A stretch of DNA of 64,000 nt. Source: Bradyrhizobium sp. 170 (lineage in GTDB: Bacteria; Pseudomonadota; Alphaproteobacteria; Rhizobiales; Xanthobacteraceae). The stretch's first letter is position 1, and every line of letters begins with the position of its first letter. The position numbers were made by a program, and so were the translations under genes. The notes below the pieces were generated by a model that saw nothing but the letters and a program-made list of their open reading frames with translations, did not search any database and was not told the origin of the DNA. The stretch spans positions 7,130,001 through 7,194,000 of the forward strand of contig NZ_CP064703.1 of the NCBI RefSeq assembly GCF_023101085.1. Direction: 5' to 3'. This document shows positions 20,578 through 52,824 of this stretch, piece after piece.

Positions 20578-21249
20578 ATGAATAAGCTGCTCAAATTTAC
20601 TGGCGCTGCATTAATTGGCGTTCTGCTTCAGAGCGGCGCCTCACAGGCGAATGTGCTTCTAAACAGCGGGTTTGAATCAGGGAATTTCGCCAATTGGACG
20701 GTGAACACTGGCGGCGACGCTACCTATCCTCAGGTCGTTGTTGCCTACAATCAACCCGGCAACTATCCCACCGGCGTATTCGGGGAGCCTGTCCCCACGG
20801 CGCCCAATGGTGGTACCTATGGCGCTTACTTCGTTTCGGACACTGCCACCCAGTCGATTTCCCAGTCGATCAGCCTGACGCAGGGTCAGAACTATCAGGT
20901 AAGCTTCGAGCTCTATTCCCCCAACAATGGCCGGAATAACGCATTCGACGCTACCCTCCAGTCGAACGTGGACGGGTTGCTCTCCCCGCTGTTCACGGCC
21001 AAGACTTTGGCGAGCGGATGGACCCTTTACTCGGCTATTTTCACGGCCAGTGCTGGTCCCTATACTTTCTCGCTGAATTTCCATGGGCAGGGCGTTCCTG
21101 CGGCAGACTTTGTGGTCGATAACGCGTCGGTGGCGGCTGTCCCTGAGGCATCGACTTGGGCGATGATGATCCTGGGCTTTGTCGGAGTTGGCTTTCTGGC
21201 CTATCGCCGCCGGGAAACCTCGAAGAAGACCGGCTTTCGTCTCGCTTGA
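20578..21249 (+). CDS. PEPxxWA-CTERM secreted protein 1
   Basis: About 223 residues. A signal peptide ([21 protein letters not shown]) is followed by a beta-rich domain, with [19 protein letters not shown] resembling carbohydrate-binding DUF642-like modules. The C-terminus has the sorting tail [14 protein letters not shown], then a hydrophobic helix and a basic end (YRRR). This copy reads PEAS where its sisters read PEPS, and its tail runs on for about ten residues. AGGAG precedes ATG 20578; the frame upstream to 20500 is not used. Expected path: Sec export, tail anchoring in the inner membrane, then processing. A strong terminator follows at 21270. Confidence 0.85.
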
Positions 21250-21269
21250 TTTTAGCCGTACTTGAGTTG

Positions 21270-21299
21270 GAAGCCGCCCGATTGGGCGGCTTCTTTTTT
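21270..21299 (+). terminator. Rho-independent terminator
   Basis: A ten-base-pair perfect stem GAAGCCGCCC / GGGCGGCTTC with a four-base loop is followed by six T. It lies 20 bases after the stop of PEPxxWA-CTERM protein 1. The GCCGCC core recurs in the other terminators of this window. Confidence 0.9.
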
Positions 21300-21719
21300 G
21301 TCCGGCGGCTTAATGTGCGAGGCGAATCTAAATCCCCAGCGGCAAGGCCGCGTCGGGATTTTATTTTTGGAGCTTTTTAATCAGATCAACCTGCTTTAAT
21401 TATATTAAATAAACGGCACTACGCAGAACGCGCCAAACGCACCGACCGAATTCCGCGTCCGCGTGCTCGCCGGACCCGGACGGATAGTCGCTGGGAGCGT
21501 CGAACCGGTGACCATACGCTCAGCCTGGACGCCAAAAGCAACCGGCGAGCGGAAAGGCAAGTATTCCCCCGCGCGCCGCCGTTCGCGCGTAAGAACTGGT
21601 GGCTACTGCAGGCAAGTGCGAGGGTCGACAAACGAGACCGTTCACCGAATGCTTCGCCGCGGTAAGGTTAAGCTGCCAATTCATTCGCGCGGAAGCGAAC
21701 GCCATTGCACAAGTTCAGC
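21300..21719. other. Intergenic stretch, nothing recognised
   Basis: About 420 bases between a terminator and the VanZ-like gene. The first 120 bases are AT-rich; the remainder is GC-rich with an open frame at 21463-21723 that lacks a recognisable domain and runs into the next gene. No repeat or RNA gene seen. Confidence 0.4.
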
Positions 21720-22124
21720 ATGAACCGGAAGATCGTCACCAAGCTAATTGCGATAGCTGCGTGGATTGCCGTCATCGCGATCGCTTATGGGACGTTGACG
21801 CATGTCGGATTCATGTACTCGATCTATTTCAAGCTTGCACCGATCTTGATGGGTCCGGAAATGCGGACTTATGCCCATTTCGAGCATGTCCTGGCGTTCG
21901 CCCTGCTCGGCGCGTTGTTTGCCCATGCCTACCCCCACAAGCTGCTGCTGGTTTGTTGTGTGGTGCTCGGAGGCGCCGTTCTTCTCGAACTTGCGCAGAC
22001 CATGACGCCGGATCGTCACGGGACAATGGTCGATGCGCTGGAGAAAATGGCCGGCGGAGCGGCCGGCATCCTATTCGCGAGAATCACGCATCGGCTGTGG
22101 TTCGCCAAGGATAAGTCGTCCTGA
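21720..22124 (+). CDS. VanZ-like membrane protein
   Basis: About 134 residues with four hydrophobic helices. The order TYAHFEHVLAFALLGALFA, HKLLLVCCVVLGGAVLLELAQ and DRHGTMVDALEKMAGGAAGI matches the VanZ-like family, in which the conserved H..AF, E..Q and D....N/K positions lie at helix ends. The role of chromosomal VanZ-like proteins is unclear; an envelope or polysaccharide-related function is likely. ATG 21720 is preferred to TTG 21705. It stands alone between two PEPxxWA-CTERM genes, which may or may not be meaningful. Confidence 0.75.
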   Translation: MNRKIVTKLIAIAAWIAVIAIAYGTLTHVGFMYSIYFKLAPILMGPEMRTYAHFEHVLAFALLGALFAHAYPHKLLLVCCVVLGGAVLLELAQTMTPDRHGTMVDALEKMAGGAAGILFARITHRLWFAKDKSS

Positions 22125-22355
22125 GCGATTGGGGCTGTCCTGACTTAACCCGCTGGTTCCGCGGCTAAAATGCCGGTTGACGCTTCGCCGAGGTTAGCAG
22201 TCCGATCTCACGTGGTCCTCTGCTCCAAACAAGCGCCAGGGTGGTTGATAGACGTGGGGTTCACGTGCAACGAAGTGTTATCCCCACCTGAGATTGACTC
22301 AAATTAAAGGAAACGTGTTTAAGGAAAATACAACCAATAATAAATGGGGGGAATT

Positions 22356-23012
22356 ATGCGCTTTCCGTCGCTGGGTTTGATCGGTCTGGGGGCCGCGCTT
22401 GCATTGACCTCTTTTGTCAGCAGCGCCTCGGCAGTCGTCACGTTTGATCAGAATTTGGCCTCGGGCTGGCACCAGGGGACCGGCACCAGCAACGGCCATT
22501 TCGCGGTCGACACGGAGGCCAACGGCGTCGAACTCGGATTGCGTGCCTCTATTCGAAAGGTCGGGGCGATTACGCCGACGGGCAATCTCTACATTGCTCC
22601 GGTTGGCATCAAAGAGGGCGTGGCACTCTGGAATTTCGAGTTCTCGGTCAATCCTGGTTCGCTGACAGGTACCTATTCGTTGCTGACGATTACCGGTCCC
22701 GGAGGGGTATTGGCGTTCGATCCGAAGATAATCCCGGACAACAAGCCGATCGGCGGCCCGCTCTATCAGAACAGCGAAAACCTTGCTTTCGCTTTTCTGG
22801 GAGGCCCGCTGAATTTCAATCCCTATCTCTCCGGCGTCTACACCTTCGATCTCAAGCTCTTCAGCGCGAACAGGGAGCTGTTGGGCGACGTCTCGATACA
22901 GGTCAACGCTGTTCCCGAACCCTCGACCTGGGCGATGTTGATTCTTGGCTTCGCCGGTATCGGCTTCATGGCCTATCGCCGGCAATCACGGCCGGCCGTG
23001 CTGGCCGCCTGA
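22356..23012 (+). CDS. PEPxxWA-CTERM secreted protein 2
   Basis: About 218 residues. The signal peptide is GLGAALALTSFVSSASA, then a beta-rich domain (VTFDQNLASGWHQGTGTSNG, LYIAPVGIKEGVALWNFEF) and the tail [14 protein letters not shown] with a Gly-rich helix and YRRQSRP. GGGGGGA lies five bases before ATG 22356, so the apparent start at 22344 is not used. The exported domain has no catalytic motif I recognise and may be a structural or glycan-binding surface protein. A terminator follows 28 bases after the stop, and the T2SS prepilin peptidase gene converges on it. Confidence 0.85.
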   Translation: MRFPSLGLIGLGAALALTSFVSSASAVVTFDQNLASGWHQGTGTSNGHFAVDTEANGVELGLRASIRKVGAITPTGNLYIAPVGIKEGVALWNFEFSVNPGSLTGTYSLLTITGPGGVLAFDPKIIPDNKPIGGPLYQNSENLAFAFLGGPLNFNPYLSGVYTFDLKLFSANRELLGDVSIQVNAVPEPSTWAMLILGFAGIGFMAYRRQSRPAVLAA

Positions 23013-23118: not shown

Positions 23119-23739
23119 TTAAATCGGCTGCGGTCCCAAAACCCAGACCCACCAAAGGCCGACGGCAAGGTGAGGCCCGAACGAGATAGCCTGCCTGCCG
23201 TGCAGGTCATGTCCTTGCGCTCTCAGGATCAGCAGACTTACCAGGGCGGAGACCACCGCAATCAACAGCAAGCCGGGAATTCCTTCCGCGCCGATCCAAA
23301 GGGCGCCTGCCGCGACGAATTTGACGTCGCCGAAACCCAGGCCGTCATGGCCCCGCAGCCAGCGATAGCCGGCGCGGAACAGGGAGGCGGCAGCAAAGAC
23401 CAGCACAGCCTCAAATCCACGCCACCAGAAGTCCGCCGCGCCCCACAGATAGGCCTGTAGCGCGCCGCCGGCGGCCAGCGCCAGGACCATGCTGTCCGGA
23501 ATGATCCCGTAGCGGCCGTCAATGGCGCAAACGGATGCCAACAGAACGACGAGGTAGCAGCCTGCGATGGCGGGCAGTGCCCAGCCTGGATCCCCTGCAA
23601 GGCTGATGGCGAACCAGACCGCGCCGGCGATCAGACCCCATGCCACCACAAGGTATTGCCGCTCTGGCGGCCGCCACGCCAGCGCATCACGGAAAAAACG
23701 GCTGGTACGATCAAGGGTCTTGCGGAGCGCGCGCATCAT
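23119..23739 (-). CDS. Type IV prepilin peptidase (A24), T2SS GspO-like
   Basis: About 206 residues and six hydrophobic helices. The aspartyl peptidase motifs are both present: AIDGRYGIIPD near residue 78 and GLGFGDVK further on (GxGD motif). It cleaves the leaders of the pseudopilins. It lacks the N-terminal domain with paired Cys pairs that methylates the new N-terminus in full-length GspO/PilD, so it resembles CpaA or archaeal-type short peptidases. The start ATG overlaps the stop of the GspC-like gene in ATGATG, so it is the last gene of the gspLMC-O unit. Confidence 0.85.
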   Translation of the reverse strand: MMRALRKTLDRTSRFFRDALAWRPPERQYLVVAWGLIAGAVWFAISLAGDPGWALPAIAGCYLVVLLASVCAIDGRYGIIPDSMVLALAAGGALQAYLWGAADFWWRGFEAVLVFAAASLFRAGYRWLRGHDGLGFGDVKFVAAGALWIGAEGIPGLLLIAVVSALVSLLILRAQGHDLHGRQAISFGPHLAVGLWWVWVLGPQPI

Positions 23740-24347
23740 CTCCCGCTCGCATGAAGGGGAACGGTCAGCTTCTCGCCCTGCCCCTCCAACACTACGTGCT
23801 CGGGGGTCACCGCGGCGACGCGCCAGCCGTCGATTTGCCCATTGAGCTGAACCCACACGCCCAGCGGATTTTGCGTCGTGATCAGGAAGGCCTTCGCCAC
23901 CCCGTCGCTCATGAAAACCCCTTTCAGGGTCATTCCGGAGTCCAAGGTCGCCATCGGCGGGGGTGGCGCGGCGGCCGGCTCGGCCGCAACAAAGCCTTGC
24001 CGGTTTCGTGAGAACAGCGGGCGCTGCACGATATTCTCAAAGCTCGCGGCGGCGCGCGCTTCGGACGCCTTGGCGGCCGGGCTGCGGCTGCCAAACCAGG
24101 TCGGGGCCGTGACCGTCGACAGCTCAAGCGAAATCACAGCGCTTAGTGTCATCACGCCAACCAGTCCGATCCAGGCCGCGAACCCCAGGATGAGGACGCG
24201 CGTCGCAGGCCGCAGCGCCGTCAATTCGCTCCGGCTGGGCAGGTCGGTCCGCCCGAACATGGCTGCGAGCCTGGCGGCTACGAATTGCAGCGGTGAACCG
24301 GCCAGGCCCGACAGCCGAAACTGGACCATTTGCACCAACGACGTCAT
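23736..24347 (-). CDS. T2SS GspC/GspN-like inner-membrane protein
   Basis: About 203 residues. One membrane helix (RVLILGFAAWIGLVGVMTLS) is followed by the homology region: ASFENIVQRPLFSRNRQG, SGMTLKGVFMSDGVAKAFL, NPLGVWVQLNGQIDGWRVAAV and a final strand. This is the part of GspC that contacts the secretin. The PDZ or coiled-coil domain usual at the C-terminus of GspC is absent. ATG 24347 overlaps the gspM stop as ATGA, which fixes the start; the much longer frame to 25037 is an artefact of GC-rich sequence. Confidence 0.8.
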   Translation of the reverse strand: MTSLVQMVQFRLSGLAGSPLQFVAARLAAMFGRTDLPSRSELTALRPATRVLILGFAAWIGLVGVMTLSAVISLELSTVTAPTWFGSRSPAAKASEARAAASFENIVQRPLFSRNRQGFVAAEPAAAPPPPMATLDSGMTLKGVFMSDGVAKAFLITTQNPLGVWVQLNGQIDGWRVAAVTPEHVVLEGQGEKLTVPLHASGR

Positions 24348-24952
24348 GGCATCCGCTCCGCCGAGGCCGATCCAGGGCCGGCTTGTCCGCCGCCCATGGC
24401 CGCCTCCCTTCCGGAAGGCTGCGAACCGTTGCGGATAGCGCCCTGAACCCTGAGCTCCGCCCTGATCGGACCGTCCTCCCCGTCCGCCAGGCTGCGGAAC
24501 GAGGCCGAAGGGACGAACAATAGCGGCGTCTGATTCTCGATCGTGAAGATCATGTCCCTGATGGCCTTCAGCGGCCCTTCGAGCTCTACGCTGACGGCAA
24601 TCACGTGCAACGGTTGGGACCGCCCGCCCTGCAATCCGCGGATGGCGAGCAGGTTGACGCCGGCATTCGCCGCCATCGACTTCAGGCTGGCCTGCAGGTC
24701 GGCGCTGGCGACGCGCTCTTCGCTGCCGGGAAGGAAAGGATCGCCGGACCGCCCGACGCCGGCCGACTTCTTTGCCGCGCGCGTCACGTTCTGGAAATGC
24801 GCAAGCTGCGCCGCATTGTCCGAAATGTCTTCGCCCCTCGCGGCAAAGTGCGCCATGATCGGTGCAAGGAAGAAGATGACGACAAAGAGTATCGCGGCAG
24901 CATTGAAGGCCAGGAATGGCGTCCCGCGCGCCAATTTCAGATTCTGAATCAT
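24344..24952 (-). CDS. gspM: T2SS assembly platform protein GspM (PilO-like)
   Basis: A 202-residue protein with one N-terminal membrane helix (FLAFNAAAILFVVIFFLAP), a helical linker and a ferredoxin-like domain (SLKSMAANAGVNLLAIRGLQ, then VSVELEGPLKAIRDMIFTIE). It matches the GspM family with a PilO-like fold (Gsp_M type b). It pairs with GspL in the inner-membrane platform. Its start overlaps the gspL stop by four bases and its stop overlaps gspC, showing a tightly coupled unit. Confidence 0.8.
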   Translation of the reverse strand: MIQNLKLARGTPFLAFNAAAILFVVIFFLAPIMAHFAARGEDISDNAAQLAHFQNVTRAAKKSAGVGRSGDPFLPGSEERVASADLQASLKSMAANAGVNLLAIRGLQGGRSQPLHVIAVSVELEGPLKAIRDMIFTIENQTPLLFVPSASFRSLADGEDGPIRAELRVQGAIRNGSQPSGREAAMGGGQAGPGSASAERMP

Positions 24953-26058
24953 GGCGCGGCCCGGGATTTTGCGGTCGCCGCACGCGCGCCACGCAGCTTG
25001 AGCACGATGCTGAAGCGATCCTTGCGCTCGTTCGCATCCGGCGTAATCGCCGAAGTCAGGGTCGCGCCCGAAAACAGCGGCGACTGGTCGATGATGCGAA
25101 CCAGGCGTGCGGCATCCGCTGAAAACCCTGATACCGTCACCGTGCCGTCGGCGATGCGGGTTTCGGTCAGAAAAGTATGTTCGGGCAGAATACGCGACAG
25201 CTCATCCCACACCGCAAGGATGCCGGTGTCAGCCTTCATCGCGAACAAACGCGCCGCGGGATCCAGGCCGTCGCGGCCGCTTTGAGCTGACAGCCGGGCC
25301 TCAACAACTGCCGTCTCCAGCGCGGCGGCAACGCTGGCCTGGCGCCATTCGAACACGACAAGGCCGAGCAGGACGGCGCCGAGCGCGGTGACTGCCAGCA
25401 GCCGAACCGCCCGCAGCGCCCACGCCGGATCTTCGTCACTGACGGCGCGGAACGTGATGACGGGCGCAGCCTCGCCGCCGGCGTCTGCCACCGCCAGACA
25501 GTCGACATCCCGTGACGCCAGACCGAGCTCCGATAAAGCCGCCTCGGCGCGATCACGCCTGATGATCCAGTGACACATCGGCACAACGCCGTCCGATTCC
25601 TGGCCCATTGCCGTTGCGGCATGCCAGATATCCGAAAGCTGGAATGGCGTTCGCCGCAATATGTCCTGGTCAAGGATTTTGGGCAGGGCGCCAAAGGCCG
25701 CCTTGGGCACACTCAACTCGCGCAGAAAGAAAAGCTCGCGCGAAATCACCGGCGCAACCGTCGTCGCCTCCCGCGACACGCCCTGCTCGATGAGCCACTG
25801 CTCGAGTGCAGCCGCGTTAAATAGCGGCAATGGAATCCGGATTTCCGCTGGACCCGTGGAAGACACCAGACGGCATGTGACGCTGTCGCCATCCCGCCAA
25901 AGCGTCACCTGCGGCCTCGCCTCGCCCTCGGCCCATTCGCGCCAGCGCGGGGGAGCCGCCTCGCGCAAGCCCGACAGCCACCACTGCGCAAAGTCCTTGC
26001 CCCACGCCGTGAGGACGTGGAGGCCACCGGCGCGGGCTGGAAGATCGGCGACAGGCAT
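24949..26058 (-). CDS. gspL: T2SS platform protein GspL (PilM/PilN fusion-like)
   Basis: About 369 residues. The first two-thirds is an actin-like cytoplasmic domain with the ELFFLRELSVPKAAFGALPK segment, LSDIWHAATAMG and GLASRDVDCLAVAD, which binds GspE in known systems. A membrane helix (LLAVTALGAVLLGLVVFEW) near residue 240 leads to a PilN-like periplasmic domain with LAVWDELSRILPEHTFLTE and LVRIIDQSPLFSGA. ATG 26058 or GTG 26067 are both possible. It is separated from gspJ by 330 bases, so gspLMC-O may have its own promoter. Confidence 0.8.
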   Translation of the reverse strand: MPVADLPARAGGLHVLTAWGKDFAQWWLSGLREAAPPRWREWAEGEARPQVTLWRDGDSVTCRLVSSTGPAEIRIPLPLFNAAALEQWLIEQGVSREATTVAPVISRELFFLRELSVPKAAFGALPKILDQDILRRTPFQLSDIWHAATAMGQESDGVVPMCHWIIRRDRAEAALSELGLASRDVDCLAVADAGGEAAPVITFRAVSDEDPAWALRAVRLLAVTALGAVLLGLVVFEWRQASVAAALETAVVEARLSAQSGRDGLDPAARLFAMKADTGILAVWDELSRILPEHTFLTETRIADGTVTVSGFSADAARLVRIIDQSPLFSGATLTSAITPDANERKDRFSIVLKLRGARAATAKSRAAP

Positions 26059-26067
26059 GAGCGTCAC

Positions 26068-26386: not shown

Positions 26387-27031
26387 CTAGCCTTGCCGCA
26401 GCGCCACCACGGTGGCGGGCTCGTTACTCCGCTCGTCCTCAAATTCGATCCGGATCGAGACCAGATCCGGCAGCCGCTCGGCGCGAACCCAATCGGCGCG
26501 CCAGGCCGGCTTGACCTTGGCGTCGACGGTGCCAAAATACCCAATTCGGATTTCACGCACGCCGCTCAGCACCACGACCCGGGTTGCGGCTGGTTCGGGG
26601 TTCTCCTTCGAGCGAGCCCCGTTAAGCGGCACGAAGTCCGCGACGATATCGCCGCCGCTCCGCCGCAAGACGATCTTGTGCGGCCCGCCTCGCAACGACC
26701 GCCCTTCGCTCAACCCCACGAAGGAGATCACCTCGCCGCGACCGTCGAACCCGACGGCGTCTTTTGGCCCTGCCCCGTCAAACCGGACCGGGAGCGCTGA
26801 CCCCACCAGGGCAGCTACGGTCTGGATCGCAGCACTGGTCTCACTCCCGATCTCGCTCGCACGATCGGCGCCGAAAGCCTGCCGCGCCATCGACAATCCG
26901 CCGGCCAGAAAGCCCGTCAGGATCGCCAGGATGGCGAGCGACAGCAGCAACTCGATCAGCGTCAGCCCCTGCTCGCGCCTCCGGCGCGCAGCAACGCGAG
27001 CGATCAGCCGGCTGCGGACCGCGCGCATCAT
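26387..27031 (-). CDS. gspJ: T2SS minor pseudopilin GspJ
   Basis: A 214-residue prepilin-like protein with a basic leader ending RREQG before LTLIELLLSLAILAILTGFL; Glu at +5 is present. The rest is a larger beta-rich domain, with EVISFVGLSEGRSLRGGPHK and VREIRIGYFGTVDAK, in keeping with GspJ, which with GspI and GspK forms the tip of the pseudopilus. Its start overlaps the gspI stop by four bases. The length and position after GspI support J rather than H. Confidence 0.85.
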   Translation of the reverse strand: MMRAVRSRLIARVAARRRREQGLTLIELLLSLAILAILTGFLAGGLSMARQAFGADRASEIGSETSAAIQTVAALVGSALPVRFDGAGPKDAVGFDGRGEVISFVGLSEGRSLRGGPHKIVLRRSGGDIVADFVPLNGARSKENPEPAATRVVVLSGVREIRIGYFGTVDAKVKPAWRADWVRAERLPDLVSIRIEFEDERSNEPATVVALRQG

Positions 27032-27474
27032 TGCTTCGCCTCGGTCGCAAGCTTCAACGCCGCGAGCTTGATGGCGGTGCCGTCCGGCGCCTCGACGGCT
27101 ATTTCAACCCAGAACGACTGCAAGGCGCCATTTGCGGGCGCAGGCCGCGCGCCTTGCGCCGATCGCGTGTCGCTCGCCGGACGAAGTTCCGTGACGGTCT
27201 GCCGCCACCGGAATTTGTTCGCAACCAAACCTTCCCGGTAGCCCGGCGCAAGCGCCTCGGAAATGCCGGCGGCTTCGAGGCGCGACTGCGCAACCCGCAG
27301 CGCGGTGCGATGGACCTGCGTGCGCGCATCGGAACGCATCGCCACCACCACGCCGGTCGATATCGCGCCGAGCCCCAGCGCCAGGATGACGAAGGCAACG
27401 AGGATTTCGAGCAGGGCAAAACCTCGCTCGCCGTCGCGCCTCGCCAACATCCGTCTCGATCGCGCGCCCATCAT
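27028..27474 (-). CDS. gspI: T2SS minor pseudopilin GspI
   Basis: A 148-residue protein with leader RRDGERG before FALLEILVAFVILALGLGAI. The small C-terminal domain includes RVAQSRLEAAGISEALAPG, typical of GspI, and ends in LKLATEAKQ. It nucleates the pseudopilus tip with GspJ and GspK. The gene overlaps gspH upstream and gspJ downstream by four bases each. Confidence 0.85.
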   Translation of the reverse strand: MMGARSRRMLARRDGERGFALLEILVAFVILALGLGAISTGVVVAMRSDARTQVHRTALRVAQSRLEAAGISEALAPGYREGLVANKFRWRQTVTELRPASDTRSAQGARPAPANGALQSFWVEIAVEAPDGTAIKLAALKLATEAKQ

Positions 27475-27911
27475 TGGATCAACCGTGGTTCGCCGGTCAG
27501 CCAGTTGACGGCGATGCGCGCCGACCGCCCATCCAACGCCAACGCGATCTCGCCGCCGGAGGACTGGCCGTCCGGATAGAATCTGATACCGCCGAGATCG
27601 CCGGAACGCTCCGTCTCGGCAACCACCACCGCGGCGACCATTCCGCGCGGAAGATTGTGCATGGAATTCGGCAAGCCGAACCGGCCTTTCTCCACGTCGA
27701 TCCGGAACAATGTTTCGGCATTGCTCGACATCGCCTGCGCACGAGCCAGCTGAAGCGTCGCCGTGACGGAGCGGGCCGTGACGGCGACACGCGTGGCCAC
27801 GGCCTTCGGTTTGGCGGACAGCGTGCCGGCAAGTACAAGCCCGATGATCCCGATGACCACGAGCAATTCGGCCAGCGTGAACCCGGCTGACGATCGTGCG
27901 GGGCGTCTCAT
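27471..27911 (-). CDS. gspH: T2SS minor pseudopilin GspH
   Basis: A 146-residue pseudopilin: leader RRPARSSAG, then FTLAELLVVIGIIGLVLAG with Glu at +5. The domain after it has TARSVTATLQLARAQAMSS and GGIRFYPDGQSSGGEIAL, the usual GspH/FimT pattern. It lies between GspF and GspI with four-base overlaps on both sides. Confidence 0.85.
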   Translation of the reverse strand: MRRPARSSAGFTLAELLVVIGIIGLVLAGTLSAKPKAVATRVAVTARSVTATLQLARAQAMSSNAETLFRIDVEKGRFGLPNSMHNLPRGMVAAVVVAETERSGDLGGIRFYPDGQSSGGEIALALDGRSARIAVNWLTGEPRLIQ

Positions 27912-29173
27912 TGGAAAGCGAGATTGTTGATCGACAGCACGGCGCTCATCACATGCATGATGAGCCCACCGATGCTTCCGCCGATGACGAGCGTCAAAGC
28001 CGGCGTCAGCAGGCCGACCATGCGCTCGATGCGCCGCTGCAGGTCGGCCTCGATCACGCTTGCCACCTGAATGAGCATGGGGCCGAGCTGACCGGATTCC
28101 TCTCCGACGGCCACGAGACGAAGCGATGCCGGCGGCAACAGGCCGTCGCTATCGAACGCGCGGTGCAGCGGCGTGCCTTCCGGAACACGCTTGATGGCGC
28201 CCTCATAGAGCGCATTCAGGTGCCGGTTGGTGACGAGCGCACGCGCGGTCTGCATCGCGGACATCAACGGCACCCTTGCGACGAGCAGCGTGCCGAGCGC
28301 ACGCGCAAAGCCACCGGCTTCGCGGTTCCGAATAAGCGCGCCAATCACTGGCGCCGAGCATTTCAAGCGATCGGCACCGAGCATAACTTCCGGATTTTGC
28401 TTCGCCTTGCCCCACAACAGGAAAACCGCAGCCCCGCCAAGGGCGACCCCCAACAGGACCATCAGCCAATTGTCCTGAACCTCCTCGAAGAAATGCAGGA
28501 TGCCCGGAAGCGGAAGGCCGGCATCGACAAAGATCGGCGAGATGCTGGGTATCAGCACAAACACGATGACCACGACCGATACCAGCGACATCAGGATCAG
28601 GATCATCGGATAGACGAGCGCTGACGCGATCTTGTTGCGAATCTCGAGCCGGCGCGCCAGCAATTCGGCGATCTGCTTGAGGACCTGCCCGGTGACGCCT
28701 CCGGCTTCGCCGGCGGCCAGAATGGCCCGGTAGTCCGATGGAAATACGTCCGGCCGTTGCGCCATCGCTTCCGAAAGCTGCAATCCGGCCAGCACGTCCT
28801 TGAGAAGCCCGTTGGCGAGACGCGCGGTTTTCGGCGCGGCGCCCGGCCCTGCGATGATCCGGAACGCGGCATCGAGCGTCAGCCCGGAATTGGTCAGCGA
28901 AGCCAGCTCAACCGTAAAGGCCGTCAGTTCCTTCAGGCTGAAGCGATTCGATTGAACGAGCTCGCGTTTCCAGACCGACGTTTCCGCTTCGCGCGCCGGC
29001 GCGGATGGCTGCCCCGAACGTTCCGCCGTCCGGTCGGCCACGCCGTAGGTTTCGAACGGCGTCAGCCCCGAGCCGTAGAGCGCGTCGACGGCGGCATCGA
29101 GGCCTTCGGCAACGATCGTCCCTACGGTGACCGCGCCTCGTTCCGTGTACGCCTTGTAGTGAAAAATTGCCAA
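27908..29173 (-). CDS. gspF: T2SS inner-membrane platform protein GspF
   Basis: A 421-residue polytopic protein with two copies of the GspF domain (first around FTVELASLTNSGLTLDAAFR, second around FARALGTLLVARVPLMSAM) and three membrane helices (ILILMSLVSVVVIVFVL, WLMVLLGVALGGAAVFLL, and near the C-terminus ALTLVIGGSIGGLIMHVM). It couples the GspE ATPase to the pseudopilus. The apparent start is TTG 29173, giving MAIFHYKAYTERG, the normal GspF N-terminus. It lies 16 bases after gspE. Confidence 0.9.
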   Translation of the reverse strand: MAIFHYKAYTERGAVTVGTIVAEGLDAAVDALYGSGLTPFETYGVADRTAERSGQPSAPAREAETSVWKRELVQSNRFSLKELTAFTVELASLTNSGLTLDAAFRIIAGPGAAPKTARLANGLLKDVLAGLQLSEAMAQRPDVFPSDYRAILAAGEAGGVTGQVLKQIAELLARRLEIRNKIASALVYPMILILMSLVSVVVIVFVLIPSISPIFVDAGLPLPGILHFFEEVQDNWLMVLLGVALGGAAVFLLWGKAKQNPEVMLGADRLKCSAPVIGALIRNREAGGFARALGTLLVARVPLMSAMQTARALVTNRHLNALYEGAIKRVPEGTPLHRAFDSDGLLPPASLRLVAVGEESGQLGPMLIQVASVIEADLQRRIERMVGLLTPALTLVIGGSIGGLIMHVMSAVLSINNLAFQ

Positions 29174-29189: not shown

Positions 29190-30971
29190 TCAGGACGCGC
29201 GCGTGACGCGAAGGACTTCTTCGAGCGAAGTCTCGCCGGCCCCGACCTTCAGGAGGCCATCTTCGTAGAGTGTGTGAAAGCCTGCTTCACGCGCGATCTG
29301 CTCGACCGCGCGCTGGTCCTGGCTTCTTCTTCCGATCGTTTCGCGGATGGCGTCGTCGACCACCAGCAGTTCCGATATCGTCGTGCGGCCGCTATAACCA
29401 GTATTGCCGCACGCCTCGCAGCCAACCGGCTCCCGGCTGTGCGACCAATCTATTCGCGGATTGCCTGCTATCGCCATCTTGAGCTTGCCATGCGCGCGTT
29501 CGCTGTCGCTGTGCAGTCGCGCGCAGACCGGGCAAAGCTTTCTGACCAGACGCTGTGCCATCACGCCTGCGATCGTCGAGGCAAGAAGGTAGCGTTCCAG
29601 TCCGATGTCGATCAGACGCGTGATCGCGGCAATCGCGCTGTTGGTGTGCAAGGTCGAGAACACCAGATGGCCGGTCAGCGCCGCCTGGATGGCGATGCGC
29701 GCAGTTTCAAGATCGCGGATTTCGCCGATCATGACGATATCCGGGTCCTGGCGCAGGATCGAGCGAAGCGCCGTGGGGAAGTCGAGACCGATCTGCGGCT
29801 GAACCTGGATCTGGTTGATCCCGGAGAGCTGATACTCGATCGGATCTTCCACGGTGAACAGCTTCAGTTCGGGTCGATTGAGATCCTTCAAGGCGGTGTA
29901 GAGCGTCGTCGTCTTTCCGCTGCCGGTCGGGCCGGTGACCAGGATGATGCCGTTCGGAAGCGCCATCAGGCGTTGGAGGCATTCCTGCGTCCTGCCGTCG
30001 AGCCCGAGCTTGGTGAAGTCGAGCTCCACCCGGGTCCGGTCGAGGATTCTCATCACGACGCTTTCGCCGAACACCGTCGGCAAGGTCGAGACGCGTATAT
30101 CGATCTCAACGCCGCGCACCACGGTTTTGATGCGGCCATCCTGCGGCAATCGCCGCTCGGCGATGTCGAGCTTGGCCATGATCTTCACGCGCGTCGTCAG
30201 CGCTGCCCGCAGCGTCGCGGGCACGAGGCGCTCCTGCTGCAAAAATCCGTCGACGCGGAATCGAACGGCGACGGCATCGCGTCCGGGCTCGATGTGCACG
30301 TCGGACGCGCCACGCTCGACGGCTCTCGCAATGATCTGATTCACCAGCCGGATGACCGGCGCTTCGTTGGCGATATCGCGCAGGCGCTCGACGTCGAATT
30401 CGCTGCCGTCGTTGCCTGATATCGCGATGTCGTCGGTTTCCTCGGGCTGGATCTCGGACGCCGCGTCCTGATACAGCGTCCGCAAGGCGCGCTCGATTTC
30501 CGCCGGAGCGATCACGGCGAGATCGACGCGCACGTCGAGCATGTAGCTGATGGCCTTTACGGACTCGTCGACAAAGGGATCGGCGGTGGCGATCAACAGG
30601 CGCCGGCCGTCGAACGAGATCGGCAGGATCCGATTGGTCTTGAGGAAAGAGAACTGCAAGCGGTCCGCCAAAACGGGCCGGGACGGGAGATCCGCCGGTT
30701 CGATCAGTGGAAGACCGCAATAGGTGGCGTAGGCCAGACAGAGGTCGGCCTCGGAAATCAGACCGAGTTTAACCAGTACGAGATCGAAACGTTCGGAAGC
30801 CGCTTCGGCGGCCCGCCGTGCCCGGCCGACAGCGGCGGCATCGACCAGGTCCTTGCCGACCAGAAGGTCGGAAAACGCCTGCGCGAAGCCGCCGTCCCTT
30901 GGCCTCGGCAATTCTGTTCCCCGGCTTGGCGGCGCGGCCGGGCGCAACAATTGCTGGATATCGAATGACAT
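29190..30971 (-). CDS. gspE: T2SS ATPase GspE
   Basis: A 593-residue hexameric secretion ATPase. The N-terminal domain (about 30-165) resembles the GspE/MshEN region. Then come the N2 domain (ASDVHIEPGRDAVAVRFRVD), Walker A GPTGSGKTTTLY near residue 347, the Asp and His boxes (DPDIVMIGEIRDLETA, LVFSTLHTNSA) and a C-terminal zinc site with CPVC near 477 and CEAC near 518. All key residues look intact. It begins the gspEFHIJ unit and is divergent from gspK, with 151 bases between for both promoters. Confidence 0.95.
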   Translation of the reverse strand: MSFDIQQLLRPAAPPSRGTELPRPRDGGFAQAFSDLLVGKDLVDAAAVGRARRAAEAASERFDLVLVKLGLISEADLCLAYATYCGLPLIEPADLPSRPVLADRLQFSFLKTNRILPISFDGRRLLIATADPFVDESVKAISYMLDVRVDLAVIAPAEIERALRTLYQDAASEIQPEETDDIAISGNDGSEFDVERLRDIANEAPVIRLVNQIIARAVERGASDVHIEPGRDAVAVRFRVDGFLQQERLVPATLRAALTTRVKIMAKLDIAERRLPQDGRIKTVVRGVEIDIRVSTLPTVFGESVVMRILDRTRVELDFTKLGLDGRTQECLQRLMALPNGIILVTGPTGSGKTTTLYTALKDLNRPELKLFTVEDPIEYQLSGINQIQVQPQIGLDFPTALRSILRQDPDIVMIGEIRDLETARIAIQAALTGHLVFSTLHTNSAIAAITRLIDIGLERYLLASTIAGVMAQRLVRKLCPVCARLHSDSERAHGKLKMAIAGNPRIDWSHSREPVGCEACGNTGYSGRTTISELLVVDDAIRETIGRRSQDQRAVEQIAREAGFHTLYEDGLLKVGAGETSLEEVLRVTRAS

Positions 30972-31122: not shown

Positions 31123-32037
31123 GTGGCAAATCGGCCAAAGGCCCGAACCAACCGACGTCCTGCCCTCGACCGGCCGGAATGCCCTTCCCTGCCCCGCGCC
31201 AGGGCCGGCCAATCGGGCTTCGCGCTGGTCGCCGTGATCTGGACTTTGGGCCTGATTACGCTGCTTGGAATGGCTGTCATCGTCGGCGCGCGTTACCGCA
31301 CCAAGACATCCTCGAACTACGCCTCGGTGACCGCAGCCGAGATGGCGGCAGAAAGCGCCGTCAACCTGGTGATTGCCACAGCGCTGGCCGCTGCGCCCGA
31401 CCAAGCCGTTAATTTTCCGTTACGGTGCCGATTGCCCGGCGGCGAACGCGCCACGATCACGGTCGAGGAAGAGACCGGAAAAATCGACCTGAACACGGCG
31501 AGCCCAGCCGCCTTGACGCGCCTCTTCACCGCGCTCACGGGCGATCAGTCGAGGGGCATGCGCATCGCCGCGCAGATCGTCGAGTTCCGCAAGCCCAAGG
31601 CACAGGGCATGCCATCCACGGGGCCTGCCGAAACGCGTTTCACGACCATCATGCAGTTGGACCAGATCGACGGCATGTCGCCCCGATTGTTTCGCGCCGC
31701 GCTTCGCCATGTCACGGTTCGCTCGGGACGGCCGGAGCCCGACATGGAAGCCGCCTCGCCCGCCATGCTCAGGCTGCTCAACGTCGAGCCGAAGCAGACG
31801 ACGGCCAAGCGAGGGCTGCCGGTGGGCGGCAGCATGACCATCCGCGCGGATATCAGCGCCTCGGATGGCGCACGCTTCATCCGCGAGGCGCTGGTCTCGC
31901 TGGAGGGCGGCAACGGACGCCCCTACGTCATCCGCGAATGGCGCCGCGGAGACATCGATTCATCAAGCGCGCGGCAGGAAAGCCCCCAAGGCGCGGCGCG
32001 CGCGTGCCTGCGCGTTCGCGACGCGGCGGCAAGCTGA
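31123..32037 (+). CDS. gspK: T2SS minor pseudopilin GspK
   Basis: A 304-residue protein. After a long basic leader, the site GQSG before FALVAVIWTLGLITLLGMAV marks a pseudopilin helix; position +5 is Val rather than Glu, as expected for GspK, which caps the pseudopilus. The KIDLNTASPAALTRLF segment is the helix-hairpin-helix-like region usual in GspK, and TIMQLDQIDGMSPRLF follows. It is on the opposite strand to all other gsp genes here. GTG 31123 is the best start. Confidence 0.85.
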   Translation: MANRPKARTNRRPALDRPECPSLPRARAGQSGFALVAVIWTLGLITLLGMAVIVGARYRTKTSSNYASVTAAEMAAESAVNLVIATALAAAPDQAVNFPLRCRLPGGERATITVEEETGKIDLNTASPAALTRLFTALTGDQSRGMRIAAQIVEFRKPKAQGMPSTGPAETRFTTIMQLDQIDGMSPRLFRAALRHVTVRSGRPEPDMEAASPAMLRLLNVEPKQTTAKRGLPVGGSMTIRADISASDGARFIREALVSLEGGNGRPYVIREWRRGDIDSSSARQESPQGAARACLRVRDAAAS

Positions 32038-32252: not shown

Positions 32253-32822
32253 TCAGGCGGCCATCAGGGCTGGCTTTGACTTGCGGCGATAAGCCATGAA
32301 GCCGACGCCCGCGAAGCCCAGCATCATCATTGCCCAAGTGGATGGTTCGGGAACAGCGGAAATGGCCGCAGGGGAAAGAGTCCAAGTGCCGGGCGTGTCG
32401 TTAACGAAGGCGTGGCCTGACGATCCAAAATCCTGTGTCCCAAAAAGCCCATGACCTAAAGTATAAATTTCGGTCGTATAGTCGGCATTATCAAGTATCA
32501 AAACCCAGCTTGTGACGGCCCCTGCGCCGTTCAAGGTGACATATTGGTTGAAATTGGATGTGATAACCCCGGGTGTACTAGTGGATAGCGTAGCGATTGG
32601 GGTGTTTGTACTAGAATACTGGGTTAACGAAAAAGAGCTGATGCCGGTAGCATAAGCATAGTTACCCGCGCCACAGCCCGTACAAGCTAACTCAACAGAT
32701 GCATCGATATGGCCTCCGTTAGAGAGCGTATTACCGTTGTATAGGTACGTATCCGCTAACGCATGCGATACCGATGCCGCGAGAGCCACGCCAATCATTA
32801 ACCCAATCGATTTAATTTTCAT
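32253..32822 (-). CDS. PEPxxWA-CTERM secreted protein 3
   Basis: A 189-residue protein with signal peptide [19 protein letters not shown], a beta-rich exported domain that holds one CTGCG pair, and the tail [14 protein letters not shown], hydrophobic helix, [12 protein letters not shown]. The exported domain ([20 protein letters not shown], then [10 protein letters not shown] before the tail) looks like the small Ser/Thr-rich surface proteins of this class. The coding sequence is AT-richer than the T2SS genes on its left. It lies between gspK and gspD but on the strand of gspD. Confidence 0.85.
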
Positions 32823-33817: not shown

Positions 33818-34261
33818 CTAGCCTTTTGAATTGAGCACGACCGGCGGCGGCGGCAGAGGTGGTGGCGGCGGCGGACGGACCGAGCCTTCGAGCTTCAAGC
33901 GCTCCTCGACGACGGCAGGGCCCGGCTCCATCACGGTGCAGCCCTTGTAGCGCTGCAGATCGGCGAGCGCGTCGAGCCGCCTGCGTTCATCGATGAGCTG
34001 CTTGGGCGCATCCAGCGGGTAGCGTTCGTAGCCGTAGCCCGCCAAGGGCCCCACCGCCAGCCAATACTCCAGCCGGGCGGCGCGCCGCGCCGCGTAACGG
34101 AACGAGGCCGCGATGCCGTTGCAGCTCATCGATTCATCAACGGGCAGGACGGCATAGGGCGGCGGCGGCTCGATCGGAGCGGCATAGGTCACGCAGCCCG
34201 CCAGCGAGCATGCCATGCTCGACAACAGCCAGAAATTTCTTATGGCCGCTCGGCGCTTCAC
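33818..34261 (-). CDS. Small lipoprotein next to gspD, candidate T2SS pilotin
   Basis: A 147-residue protein with a lipoprotein signal (FWLLSSMACSLAGC, Cys 22). The mature region has two further Cys (MSCNGIAASFRYAARRAARL and LQRYKGCTVMEPG) that could form a disulfide, and a C-terminal polyproline run. Its GTG start overlaps the gspD stop by four bases, so it is translated with the secretin. Position and lipid anchor make it a candidate for the pilotin that carries GspD to the outer membrane; sequence similarity to known GspS is not evident to me. Confidence 0.6.
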   Translation of the reverse strand: MKRRAAIRNFWLLSSMACSLAGCVTYAAPIEPPPPYAVLPVDESMSCNGIAASFRYAARRAARLEYWLAVGPLAGYGYERYPLDAPKQLIDERRRLDALADLQRYKGCTVMEPGPAVVEERLKLEGSVRPPPPPPLPPPPVVLNSKG

Positions 34262-36543
34262 TGTGAAATTATCCGCTGCATGGTGTTGGCCGGCGTACGC
34301 TCGCGCGAGGTCGTGTGCGGCATGTAGACATGCATCTTCCGCCGGTATTCTTCGGTCACGAGACGGCTTTCCGTGCCGTCGCGGACAACCTTGGGCGTGA
34401 TCAGGATGACGAGCTCCGTCTTCTGAACCTGGTCGCCCCGGTTGGAGAACGCAGCGCCAAGCCCGGGTATATCGCCGAGCAGCGGAATCTGGTTGCTGCT
34501 CTTGTTGGCCTGCTCCTGGATCATGCCGCCGAGCGCCAAAACCTCGCCGTCGTTGACGACGACGGTGGTCTTCACACGGCGCTGCTGGATAGTGGGCGAG
34601 TCGATGCCGGATGAGGTGGTTTTCACCACGGCGCTGACTTCCTGCTCGATCTCGAGCTGCACCCTGCCGCTCTCATTGATGCGCGGCGTTACCGAAAGGA
34701 TCACGCCGGTATCCTGCATGGTGATCGAATTGACGATCGCCGTTTGGGCCGTCACGGTGCTGGTCGCGGTCTGCGTGGTGATCGGTACCTGATCGCCGAT
34801 CTGCAGCCTCGCCGTCTTGTTGTCGAGAACCATCAGCGAAGGCGTCGAAATGACATTCACGCGGGTAATCGCGTTCAATGCGCTGAGCGTCGACGCGATG
34901 CTGGCTGCGTTGACAGCATAGTTGAACCCGGGAAAGACCGATGCGACGCCGCCGGTCAGCGCGTTCGAGAACGAGGCGGTCGGCGTGCCCTTCTTCGATA
35001 GCTGCCATTGCACGCCATATTGCAGCTTGTCGTTAAGCACCACTTCCGCGATGACAGCTTCGATCAGGACCTGGCTTGCGACGACATCGAGCCCCTGAAT
35101 GACACGAAGCACGCGCTGGTAGTCCCGCTCATTGGCCATGATGAGAAGCGAGTTTTTCGTCTCGTCGGCGACGATCTTGAGCGGCGGTTCACCGCCCACC
35201 CCATTGGAGGACGGAGATGGCTCCATCGAATCCGGCGCCAATGCTTCCGGCTCGTTGTTCAGTGCGCGCTGCAGGCTTTGCAGATCGTTGCCGGGACTTA
35301 CACCGCGAAGCCCGATCGCCGCGCCCTGATCGATATCCGCCGTCGCGCCGCCCGGTCCGGGCGATTTTGCCGAGCTTCCGGAGAAGCTCGCCTGCTTCGA
35401 CCGCGGAGAGACGCTGCGCGTCGGCGGCTTCACCACTTTCATTTCATTCGCAAACATCGACTGCAGCACGCTCGCGAGCTCCGCGACGGGCCGGTTCTGC
35501 ACCTGATAGACATGAAGCTGCCGCTCGGAGCCGGCCGCCTTGGCGTCGAGCCGCCTGATCCAGGTCTGCGCCCTCGGCAAATAGCTCGGCTGCGAGGTCA
35601 CGACCAAAATCGCGCCAAGCCGCGTGTTTGCAATGAACCTGACACGGCCCTTGAGCGGCCCCTCTTTCTCGGCCGCGAATATCGCCTTTAATTCGTCGAC
35701 CATTTTTTCCGGCTGGGGCGTTTTCACCGGAACAACGGCAAACGACATGCCCTTCATGACATCGACATCGAACACTGAAATCGAATCGAGCATGCTTTCG
35801 ATTTCCGCCGGGGAGCCCTTGAGCGCGAGGATGTTGCGGGCATCGTCGGCCTGGACGATGGCGCCCTTCGGCACCATCGGCTCCAGCACGCGGGCGACTT
35901 CGGTGGCGGAAACGTATTTCAAGGAAACGACGCGAATGCCGTTTCCGGCAATGGCGCTCTCGGCCGGGCCATCGCCGGTCGCAATCACGCCCGTGGCCGC
36001 CTGGTCGGCCGGCGCAATCCGGTAGGTGCCGCGGCTTTGCACCAGCACCGCGCCGATCGGCACCAGTGCGGTCTGGAACATCTCCATCGCCTCGGCCTTG
36101 CTGACCGGACGCGTCGTTTGCACGGAAATGACTCCGTCGACGCGAGGATCGACGACGTAGTTCACGCCGATCATATCGCCGAGAACGGTCTTGGCGGCCT
36201 GCTGAAGGGGAACGCTCGCGAGGTTGAGAACCACGTTCCCGTCCGGGCCGGCGGTCTTCCGTTTCGAATATGTCCCGCCGATCATGCTGCCGCTGCCGCC
36301 ATCGATGACGGCAACGGCCGGCGATGAGGGTGACGGAAGCGGCACGGCGCCCGTAGGGCCGCCGTCATACGCATAGGTTTGCTCGAGGGAAACCGGCTGT
36401 CCCGAAGCCAGTCTGGGTTGTGACACCGTGGTCAAAGGCGTGGGGGTGGTGGTGGTGCAGCCCGACACAACGAGTATTGCCGCCCAACAGGCGGCTAACC
36501 TCGTCGCAAGGCTACGAGAAGGCAACAAAGGTAAAACCCCCAA
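34258..36543 (-). CDS. gspD: T2SS outer-membrane secretin GspD
   Basis: A 761-residue secretin forming the outer-membrane channel. The N-terminus has a lipobox (ILVVSG before Cys 29), so the protein may itself be lipidated. N-domains follow: VVLNLASVPLQQAAKTVLGD (N0), VRVVSLKYVSATEVARVLEP-type N1/N2 repeats, and a Ser/Gly-rich spacer near 395-440. The secretin domain includes VLIEAVIAEVVLNDKLQYGV, VNVISTPSLMVLDNKTA and VPITTQTATS, and ends with KTELVILITPKVVRDG. The only start in frame is TTG 36543. It lies apart from the gspE unit, with PEPxxWA-CTERM gene 3 and a hypothetical gene between. Confidence 0.9.
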   Translation of the reverse strand: MGVLPLLPSRSLATRLAACWAAILVVSGCTTTTPTPLTTVSQPRLASGQPVSLEQTYAYDGGPTGAVPLPSPSSPAVAVIDGGSGSMIGGTYSKRKTAGPDGNVVLNLASVPLQQAAKTVLGDMIGVNYVVDPRVDGVISVQTTRPVSKAEAMEMFQTALVPIGAVLVQSRGTYRIAPADQAATGVIATGDGPAESAIAGNGIRVVSLKYVSATEVARVLEPMVPKGAIVQADDARNILALKGSPAEIESMLDSISVFDVDVMKGMSFAVVPVKTPQPEKMVDELKAIFAAEKEGPLKGRVRFIANTRLGAILVVTSQPSYLPRAQTWIRRLDAKAAGSERQLHVYQVQNRPVAELASVLQSMFANEMKVVKPPTRSVSPRSKQASFSGSSAKSPGPGGATADIDQGAAIGLRGVSPGNDLQSLQRALNNEPEALAPDSMEPSPSSNGVGGEPPLKIVADETKNSLLIMANERDYQRVLRVIQGLDVVASQVLIEAVIAEVVLNDKLQYGVQWQLSKKGTPTASFSNALTGGVASVFPGFNYAVNAASIASTLSALNAITRVNVISTPSLMVLDNKTARLQIGDQVPITTQTATSTVTAQTAIVNSITMQDTGVILSVTPRINESGRVQLEIEQEVSAVVKTTSSGIDSPTIQQRRVKTTVVVNDGEVLALGGMIQEQANKSSNQIPLLGDIPGLGAAFSNRGDQVQKTELVILITPKVVRDGTESRLVTEEYRRKMHVYMPHTTSRERTPANTMQRIISQ

Positions 36544-46679: not shown

Positions 46680-47381
46680 ATGGTTGGTACTATCGCAAAA
46701 CTGTCTTGCGCTGTTCTTGTTGTGTCCGCCGTGCCAGCCAAAGCTGTCGAGGTGATCACGAACGGCGACTTTCAATCGGGTCTGACGGGATGGACCTCGT
46801 ACACCACCGCGAACGGAACGATCGCGGCCACTCCGAGCCTGCCAGGCGCTCCGCAGCCGCAGAACGCCTCGGTCGTCTCTTTCAACGTGACGGGCTCCGG
46901 CGCCTCGAACGCGTTGTTCCTGAACGCAGGCAAGATCAATCCGATCTATGGTTCAGCTCCCGGGGAAGGTGGTGGTGTCTCGCAGACGTTCACGACGACG
47001 GGTGGTCTGGCGACATTCTCGGCCGATATTGCGGCATATACCCGCGTGAATGGTCTCACGGCGTTCGGATTGATGAGCGTCCTGCTGGATGGTGTGGTGT
47101 TGGATAGCTTTGACTTCGTCGGCCCTGGCACGTCGACGACACTGCGCAACACGCTGGACTTCACCACCAACCTTACGGCGGGCCAGCATACCATCCAGCT
47201 ACAGGCCACGCGCATCTTCGCACCCGGTGGTGGCGTTACCTCACAGTACTTCGACAACGTATCGCTCGACGTGTTGGCGCCCGTTCCGGAGCCCTCAACC
47301 TGGGCGATGCTGATCCTTGGCTTCGTTGGGGTAGGTTTTATGGCTTATCGCCGTCGCAACGGCGCAACGCTCGCGGCCTGA
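46680..47381 (+). CDS. PEPxxWA-CTERM secreted protein 4
   Basis: A 233-residue protein: signal peptide ([15 protein letters not shown]), a beta-sandwich region beginning [19 protein letters not shown], the start typical of carbohydrate-binding modules, and [17 protein letters not shown] before the tail [10 protein letters not shown] with helix and [11 protein letters not shown]. The NGDF..GLTGW motif and FDNVSL close resemble DUF642-like galactose-binding folds, as in protein 1, so both may bind glycans. A terminator follows 21 bases after the stop. Confidence 0.87.
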
Positions 47382-51409: not shown

Positions 51410-51711
51410 GCGGCCAGCAGAGCCTGGCTTTCGCGCGGCTGTTCACGGGACGGGCTGGGGCCAAGGATGAGACGGGCGAACGAGCGCGTTGCGAGGAATG
51501 CCGCGCAGACCACGATCGCAGCGAGTTGAAGACCGGGGTAAAAAATAACCGCTCCGAGAACGAGCCAGCCTGCCGCGATCGCAAGGAAGTCGCCGAGCCT
51601 TGAGCTCCTGCCGTGGGCGGGATCGAAGTCGCGATCGAGCGCATCCGCGATCGCATCGAAGCCGTCAATCGCATCCCTGCTTGTCGGGCCGGCCAGATCA
51701 CGTGAAAACAT
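51406..51711 (-). CDS. Small membrane protein
   Basis: A 101-residue protein starting at ATG 51711 with a GGGGGTG sequence upstream. It has an acidic cytoplasmic start (DAIDGFDAIADALDRDFDPA), a pair of adjacent hydrophobic helices (FLAIAAGWLVLGAVIFYPGL, LAAIVVCAAFLATRSFARLI) and a polar tail. It converges with the NfrB-like gene, overlapping its stop by four bases. Family unknown. A hairpin around its leader (51715-51745) may regulate it. Confidence 0.6.
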   Translation of the reverse strand: MFSRDLAGPTSRDAIDGFDAIADALDRDFDPAHGRSSRLGDFLAIAAGWLVLGAVIFYPGLQLAAIVVCAAFLATRSFARLILGPSPSREQPRESQALLAA

Positions 51712-51750
51712 CGAACACCCCCAAGAGCCTCTCGCGAGCTCTGGGGGCAT

Positions 51751-52107
51751 TTGGCGGGAGGACTATTGCCCGCCGCTCAAACCGACCGTTACAGTTTTAT
51801 CCATATGGCTCTTTTGCGCGCGAAGGCTTTGCGCCTCCCGGGACATGAATAATTCGGGCCCAACGCATTCGTTAGGATTTGAATAATTCGCCCATAGAAA
51901 TGGGGAAACTGGCCGAAGCGAACACAAGGCGGCAGCAAAAGTGCCCACAATTGCGCGCGCTTCTCCGGCGAACCTTGGCTTGCATCCGGGTCGGACGACG
52001 GAATAGCCGTTAGTATTGATATCTCTTCCTTTTAATTGGCCTTGCTTTATTTAATTTTCGAATTTAAATTCCGGACGAGAATTAACTATTTATTTGGAAG
52101 CCCGATC
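51751..52107. other. Intergenic region and AT-rich leader of PEPxxWA-CTERM gene 5
   Basis: The interval runs from the leader of the minus-strand membrane protein gene (starting at 51711) to the next start. Its last 95 bases (52010-52105) are strikingly AT-rich for this genome and end in a GGAAG ribosome site. No other gene is supported. Confidence 0.4.
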
Positions 52108-52824
52108 ATGCGAAAATTGCTTGCACCGCTCTGCGCGCTCGCCGCCCTTGTCGCCTTGAGCGATAGCGCCCGTGCCGTGGTCGTCACGGCATCCAGCGGC
52201 CCATTCAGCGCCGGCAATTCCAATACCAACAACGACATTACGTTCGACGGCCTCGCCACGCCGAACACGTTTGCCGGCACCAGCATCCAGTGGGGCGCTG
52301 CGCCGGCTTCGCTTGGCGGCATCGCCTTCTCGGGTACGGCCATCATCGCCAAGAATGCCGCGGGAACGGCGGCGGGTATCTCGGCGACGCCGGCGGGAGA
52401 CACCACAAACTACATGTCCATTCTGGGTGGCAAGTCCGAGACGCTGACGTTCTCGGGAGCCCAGAACAAGTTCGGTCTGTTTTGGGGATCGATCGATTCC
52501 TACAACAGCGTCGCATTCTATCTGGGAAGCAGCGCCACGCCGTTCCTGACGCTTTTTGGGAACAACCTCAACGCAGTGCCCGCGCTTGGATTTAACGGCG
52601 ACCAGTCGGGCGCTCTGACGAACGCTTATGTCACGTTCACCGGCCTGAGCTTCGACAAGATCGTTCTCGCATCGTCGAGCAATTCATTCGAATTCGACAA
52701 CATCTCCTACGGCAATGTTGGACCCGTGCCGGAGCCCTCGACCTGGGCCATGATGATCCTTGGCTTTGCCGGTGTCGGCTACATGACCTATCGGCGGAAG
52801 CGCCAAGCGACTGCTCTGGCCTAA
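52108..52824 (+). CDS. PEPxxWA-CTERM secreted protein 5
   Basis: About 238 residues: signal peptide [20 protein letters not shown], a beta-rich domain that includes [39 protein letters not shown] and [19 protein letters not shown], and the tail [14 protein letters not shown] with Gly-rich helix and [11 protein letters not shown]. The exported domain resembles the NPCBM/lectin-like PEP-CTERM architecture in which a calcium- or sugar-binding beta-sandwich ends in FDNIS. ATG 52108 follows a GGAAG ribosome site. A terminator lies 26 bases after the stop. Confidence 0.87.

Follow-up and report, generated by a model that had tools for sequence, protein, structure and literature searches.

The PEP-CTERM/EpsH system is described in PMC1569441, where one table gives protein E of the type II secretion system (T2SS) as 34th best hit; a T2SS gene had therefore already been seen in such a profile. 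The route by which PEP-CTERM proteins leave through the outer membrane is, according to PMC12188702, unclear at present, and that paper favours the polysaccharide exporter as one possibility. PMC9850573 suggests that the T2SS may carry PepA into the periplasm. In a table of PMC11340318, GspL and GspH are each hit by one insertion among colony-morphology mutants of Sphingomonas. Rhombosortase, according to PMC3237569, marks no particular T2SS subclass. We found no report of a link between an exosortase and a T2SS subclass in the literature searched, which covered few subscription papers. Here we analyse a stretch of 64,000 nucleotides from Bradyrhizobium sp. 170 (contig NZ_CP064703.1, positions 7,130,001 to 7,194,000; the window), in which five genes ending in a PEPxxWA-CTERM tail are set in and around the genes of a T2SS. 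Comparison shows to which family the enzyme belongs, which partner genes accompany it, and how enzyme, tails and T2SS are co-distributed and linked. On these gene-level comparisons, the five tail proteins are very probably substrates of exosortase V (XrtV), which would cleave them and release or transfer them, while the T2SS, of a subclass named T2SS-A here, would be a fellow passenger of the same island and not the reader of the tail.

Five PEPxxWA-CTERM proteins in the window

A sequence-only reading of the window had reported five genes with a common layout of signal peptide, beta-rich domain and PEPxxWA tail. Gene positions and tail models confirmed the five genes and their layout, with signal peptides judged by eye, and all five proteins matched both NF035944 and PF07589.

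20578..21249, plus strand: tail protein, PEASTWAM variant; NF035944 borderline; PF02018 (CBM_4_9) 35.5 bits, cut-off 25.9
22356..23012 (frame opens at 22344), plus strand: tail protein, convergent with the prepilin peptidase gene; NF035944 over cut-off
32253..32822, minus strand: tail protein between gspK and gspD; NF035944 over cut-off
46680..47381, plus strand: tail protein, beta-sandwich like carbohydrate-binding modules (model and Foldseek); NF035944 over cut-off
52108..52824, plus strand: tail protein of the Npun_F0296 exosortase-dependent surface family (NF050191 66.4 bits, cut-off 29); NF035944 over cut-off

The positions of 22356 and 32253 relative to the T2SS genes are those that the reading had given. 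The motif is PEPSTWAM in four of the five tails and PEASTWAM in the 20578 protein, which is borderline for NF035944 at 34.9 bits (35.5 with its neighbours in frame, 31.9 in a second scoring; cut-off 35). The window holds five of the genome's 20 NF035944 matches above cut-off, where an even spread over 9.195 Mb predicts about 0.14. Among 14 control genomes, this model matched at E<=1 in eight and over its cut-off in none.

Exosortase V in the same polysaccharide locus

The reading had also noted that no exosortase was in sight, which is correct for the window and incorrect for the genome. A PF09721 search of the 9,195,219-base single-contig genome returned a sole exosortase match (226.9 bits), so that absence from the genome is ruled out. 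The frame (7105795-7106706, minus strand) lies to the left of the window, stopping 23,295 bases short of its first base, and encodes XrtV (NF035943 315.9 bits, cut-off 313). Close to it lies a V-type EpsI (NF045608 243.8 bits, cut-off 228), together with an EpsD-type isomerase and a PEP-CTERM ATPase, export protein and chain-length determinant, all below their cut-offs. The surrounding genes are those of an extracellular polysaccharide (EPS) locus: glycosyltransferases, sugar-nucleotide enzymes and Poly_export. The window lacks an exosortase because its edge cuts this one exosortase/EPS locus and leaves the enzyme outside. Residues C194, R240 and H261 of XrtV are invariant in a four-sequence alignment, and on our reading of PMC1569441 they are its putative triad.

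Three further tail genes, two over cut-off and one below in the genome search, lie no more than 10 kb from XrtV. The genome-wide total is 20 tails over cut-off plus four weaker matches. Of the 20, the window holds five, a further two adjoin XrtV, and 13 are more than 1 Mb from XrtV and T2SS alike.

Two frames that adjoin XrtV (L002:12975-13655 and L002:16890-17615; metallophosphatase-like and trypsin-like) have homologues that adjoin T2SS-A in G634 and G652, two genomes without XrtV or tails.

Tails follow exosortase V across the family and the genus

Each of 198 genomes of the family was searched for XrtV, tails and GspD. XrtV matched at E<=1e-20 in three genomes, two of them over cut-off. 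Tails matched at E<=1e-5 in five, with at least 21, at least 17, at least three, one and one matches; tail counts are lower bounds because at most 40 candidates per genome were scored in the family and 31 in the genus. The family genomes with at least three tails are exactly the three with XrtV. Of the two single-tail genomes, one has its match in a 29-residue frame and the other is 84% complete. GspD scored over cut-off in 37 genomes, two of which have XrtV, and the 35 with GspD and without XrtV had no tail match (35/35), which rules out that tails track T2SSs in general. The third XrtV genome, G119, had no GspD match at E<=1e-40. A class-wide draw of 385 genomes was too thin for use; its two exosortase matches were the window's genome and G334, whose match scored higher for exosortase B, with both models below their cut-offs.

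In a sample of 265 genomes of the genus, XrtV was called from a match at E<=1e-60 and T2SS-A from a GspD at least 70% identical to that of the window. XrtV was found in 35 genomes and T2SS-A in 34, with 30 genomes having both, five XrtV alone, four T2SS-A alone and 226 neither. At least three tails were present in 30/30, 3/5, 1/4 and 5/226 genomes of these groups, respectively, and hence in 33/35 genomes with XrtV versus 6/230 without it. The two XrtV genomes with fewer than three tails, G704 and G630, have the two lowest-scoring exosortase matches.

According to the sequence-only reading, the tail might be handed to a T2SS or to an unlinked enzyme. The presence of XrtV in the same EPS locus and the way tails follow XrtV across genomes speak against this proposal. 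Hand-over to the T2SS is also at odds with the 13 distant tails of the window's genome and with the tails of G119/G590 (XrtV, no GspD) and G645 (XrtV, no T2SS-A). A dedicated exosortase elsewhere and tails away from the T2SS, which the reading itself had set against its idea, are largely what we found, although not fully, given the tail-rich genomes without an exosortase described below.

Tail-rich genomes without an exosortase match

Several observations weigh against XrtV as the processing enzyme. XrtV scores lie near the cut-off, with 24 of the 35 genus matches over it; the association counts ignore the relatedness of the genomes; and 6/39 tail-rich genomes of the genus have no exosortase match, so that XrtV cannot be the full explanation for the genus. 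Five of the six also lack T2SS-A, namely G757 (at least 31 tails, rated 100% complete), G806 (at least nine), G746 (at least eight), G738 (at least four) and G740 (at least three); the sixth, G729, has T2SS-A and at least 21 tails. PF09721 at E<=1e-10 gave no match in any of them. At this threshold six of 60 genomes searched did match, comprising all four included positives (G603, G605, G630 and G704) as well as G705 and G117, and none of 20 genus controls, picked as genomes that lack tails, XrtV and T2SS-A alike, matched.

The six genomes would be expected if an unlinked or unrecognised enzyme, instead of XrtV, processed the tails, and the XrtV profile gave nothing convincing in the stretches of G757, G806 and G740. 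A search for a substitute enzyme, combining this profile with a multi-helix scan and between-genome comparison, likewise yielded nothing convincing in the part of each genome read (17 stretches of G757, L227-L243, 340 kb, and one each of G806, L244, and G740, L245). Such an enzyme nevertheless appears highly improbable to us: XrtV is present in the window's genome, four of the six genomes are drafts of at least 240 contigs, and the threshold of E<=1e-10 is strict. The tails of G729, moreover, look orphaned, because nothing in the 200 kb read there corresponds to the approximately 29-kb XrtV block of the window's genome, and an integrase-core (transposase) gene sits at the junction, where about 1.4 kb replaces the XrtV/EPS-export block (L210, G729:C1:7750001-7770000, around 10600-12100). 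In G757, G806, G746, G738 and G740, a distant exosortase must have escaped the search, or else a different enzyme is at work.

Exceptions also occur on the side of the T2SS. In G634, G652 and G756, T2SS-A is found with neither XrtV nor a tail match, and G645, G754 and G766 have XrtV with at least 18, at least five and at least ten tails, respectively, without T2SS-A. Given the exceptions, we can therefore claim neither that XrtV explains every tail nor that T2SS-A is required.

G705 and G117 (L201, L206) have an exosortase match and no PEPxxWA tail match, and their exosortases are probably of other types with other tails. G705 carries a relative of the window's GspD with 51% identity.

The T2SS of the window and its linkage to exosortase V

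The window encodes the parts of a T2SS, with secretin, ATPase, inner-membrane platform, pseudopilins and prepilin peptidase.

8798..9358, minus strand: gspG, major pseudopilin, away from the other gsp genes; PF08334 92.2 bits; located by motif scan
23119..23856, minus strand: prepilin peptidase (GspO), peptidase A24; PF01478 over cut-off
23736..25037, minus strand: frame with GspC-like domain; PF11356 22.8 bits, below cut-off 27
24949..26067, minus strand: GspL-like; PF05137 PilN domain over cut-off
26387..27031, minus strand: gspJ-like; T2SS protein J model below cut-off, N_methyl over cut-off
27028..27474, minus strand: gspI-like; XpsI model below cut-off
27471..27911, minus strand: gspH; PF12019 over cut-off
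27908..29173, minus strand: gspF; TIGR02120 279.4 bits (best model), below cut-off 424
29190..30971, minus strand: gspE; TIGR02533 606.3 bits (best model), below cut-off 630.25
31123..32037, plus strand: gspK-like; PF21687 weak, 22.6 bits, below cut-off 26.2; conserved in G729, G634 and G652
34258..36543, minus strand: gspD, subclass T2SS-A; TIGR02517 462.5 bits, cut-off 351.35; placed by tree

GspD, GspG, GspH and the peptidase score over their own cut-offs. The best matches for GspE, F, I, J, K and the GspC-like domain fall short of theirs. No profile identified a GspM among the gsp genes of the window. A distance of about 14 kb separates the window's gspG from the remaining gsp genes; in G634 and G652 its homologue is about 2 kb from the peptidase gene.

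That tails go with this gsp type, as the sequence-only reading had it, is no local accident, as seen from a GspD tree, the genus search and counts of tails in flanking DNA. In a tree of 59 GspD (60 GspD places having loci, minus one duplicate, L129), the window's GspD falls in a clade of 15 rows, all from genomes with XrtV (SH-aLRT 100). Of the other 16 rows from such genomes, 15 are mixed with 26 rows from genomes without XrtV and one stands just outside the clade with two rows without XrtV. The genus search later found four members of T2SS-A without XrtV, and a second tree of 30 T2SS-A GspD (30 of the 34 T2SS-A genomes, with three outgroups) needs two changes of XrtV state. T2SS-A was present in 30/35 genomes with XrtV versus 4/230 without it, counts that likewise take no account of relatedness. 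In 20 of the 30 genomes with both, XrtV and gspD are on one contig, and the distance between them is 9-125 kb in all 20 (median 58 kb).

Tails were counted in flanks and stretches with our own regular expressions, not with the NCBI model. At 17/20 T2SS-A loci they occurred no more than about 13 kb from the gsp cluster (39 in 770 kb), compared with 0/10 other T2SS loci (0 in 400 kb). The T2SS-A loci came from 20 of 34 T2SS-A genomes, picked for XrtV presence and long contigs, with the window's genome excluded and two flanks shortened by contig ends; the control places were ten of the 15 non-A rows that XrtV genomes contributed to the 59-GspD tree, from nine genomes, and three of these places sit in two genomes with a single tail each. 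Around XrtV itself, tails were found at 21/26 named loci (63 in 498 kb). The 25 named XrtV genomes (25 of 26 searched) overlap the genus and family draws (G581 = G784, G590 = G119, G596 = G114). The link of XrtV with one T2SS subclass in the genus is real, and may reflect either co-inheritance of an island or an export route.

GspD relatives with 48-51% identity to that of the window, a sister subclass, occur in ten further genomes; one of them, G704, has XrtV.

An export route would make T2SS-A the outer-membrane exit: XrtV would free the tail proteins from the inner membrane and T2SS-A would carry the folded proteins into the polysaccharide of the island. Analogous descriptions exist for MYXO-CTERM and GlyGly-CTERM proteins, and the skewed genus counts, the clade drawn from XrtV genomes only, the spacing on all shared contigs and the contrast between T2SS-A and other T2SS loci in nearby tails are as this route predicts, as is the finding of no second GspD match in the window's genome at E<=1e-40. 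We nonetheless think it unlikely. T2SS-A is kept in G634, G652 and G756 without XrtV or tails, G645, G754 and G766 manage XrtV and tails without it, 3/20 T2SS-A loci have no nearby tail, the linkage is loose and forms no operon, and the contrast with other loci is softened by 2/9 control genomes that hold one tail each. XrtV and tails also occur without a GspD match in Nitrobacter (G119/G590) and in four metagenome-assembled genomes, and a general need for a T2SS is therefore unlikely.

We lean instead towards T2SS-A exporting other cargo, for example polysaccharide-acting enzymes, with XrtV and the tails linked to it through the shared EPS island alone. G634 and G652 keep T2SS-A beside sugar-nucleotide genes, tails are denser around XrtV than around T2SS-A, and the distances of XrtV and GspD-A are correlated (r 0.72, 26 genomes), as shared inheritance predicts. 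Set against this, no cargo gene was identified, and co-inheritance alone leaves the rarity of T2SS-A without XrtV (4/34) unaccounted for.

Domains of the tail proteins

AlphaFold2 models were made for two of the five tail proteins, 22356 and 46680 (mean pLDDT 71.5 and 71.9), and the beta-rich domain of the sequence-only reading was found in both, followed by a C-terminal helix. Its further suggestion of glycan-binding domains fared unevenly. The 20578 protein, one of five, has CBM_4_9, and the ten best Foldseek matches of the 46680 model, with moderate TM-scores (0.31-0.43 by query length), comprise four carbohydrate-binding modules together with a glycosidase, phage tail-fibre or spike proteins and insecticidal Cry proteins; the 22356 model gave no Foldseek match at E<=0.001. 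The tail proteins may attach to the polysaccharide of their own locus.

Orthologues of the 22356 protein (79-88% identity) adjoin T2SS-A in 11/20 loci, all within one close group, and no close orthologue of the 32253 protein was found in the flanks examined. A Tc-toxin binding domain in the 32253 protein was dismissed as a chance match (Pfam 13.5 bits, cut-off 25).

Discussion

We propose that XrtV processes the tail proteins of the window along the following lines, where cleavage, acceptor, final location and T2SS cargo are what we infer. The signal peptides, read by eye, would direct the proteins to Sec export, and the C-terminal helix would keep each of them in the inner membrane. XrtV, whose gene belongs to the same EPS locus but lies 23 kb beyond the window edge, would then cut at the PEPxxWA motif, and the cleaved protein would be released or transferred for display in extracellular polysaccharide. 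The T2SS would not read the tail; its subclass is carried within the same EPS/XrtV island in Bradyrhizobium.

The tags are very probably ordinary ones. That XrtV and T2SS-A usually share a sugar-polymer island in this genus suggests, at the level of gene content, a possible export route out of the cell. If such a route were true, XrtV and a dedicated T2SS-A would amount to an identified exit route for exosortase substrates, and an exosortase that marks one T2SS subclass offers a concrete exit candidate that simple genetics in a soil genus could probe. Nature also provides variants, with XrtV lost and T2SS-A and tails kept (G729), with XrtV and tails lost and T2SS-A kept (G634, G652 and G756), and with XrtV and tails and no T2SS-A (G645).

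Among known systems, the locus resembles the exosortase V/PEPxxWA-CTERM system (NF035943, NF035944, NF045608) in its XrtV and V-type EpsI over cut-off, its 20 tails spread over the genome and its EPS genes; it differs from that system as described by the T2SS subclass within the same island. With the exosortase A (XrtA/EpsH) PEP-CTERM system it shares ATPase, export and chain-length families, which match best, below cut-offs, to the models from XrtA loci, whereas the enzyme itself reaches only 161.9 bits for XrtA (cut-off 208). The GlyGly-CTERM/rhombosortase and MYXO-CTERM/myxosortase systems likewise combine a C-terminal tail, a membrane protease and a T2SS in one cell. Protease and motif differ here, and any dependence on the T2SS is hypothetical here.

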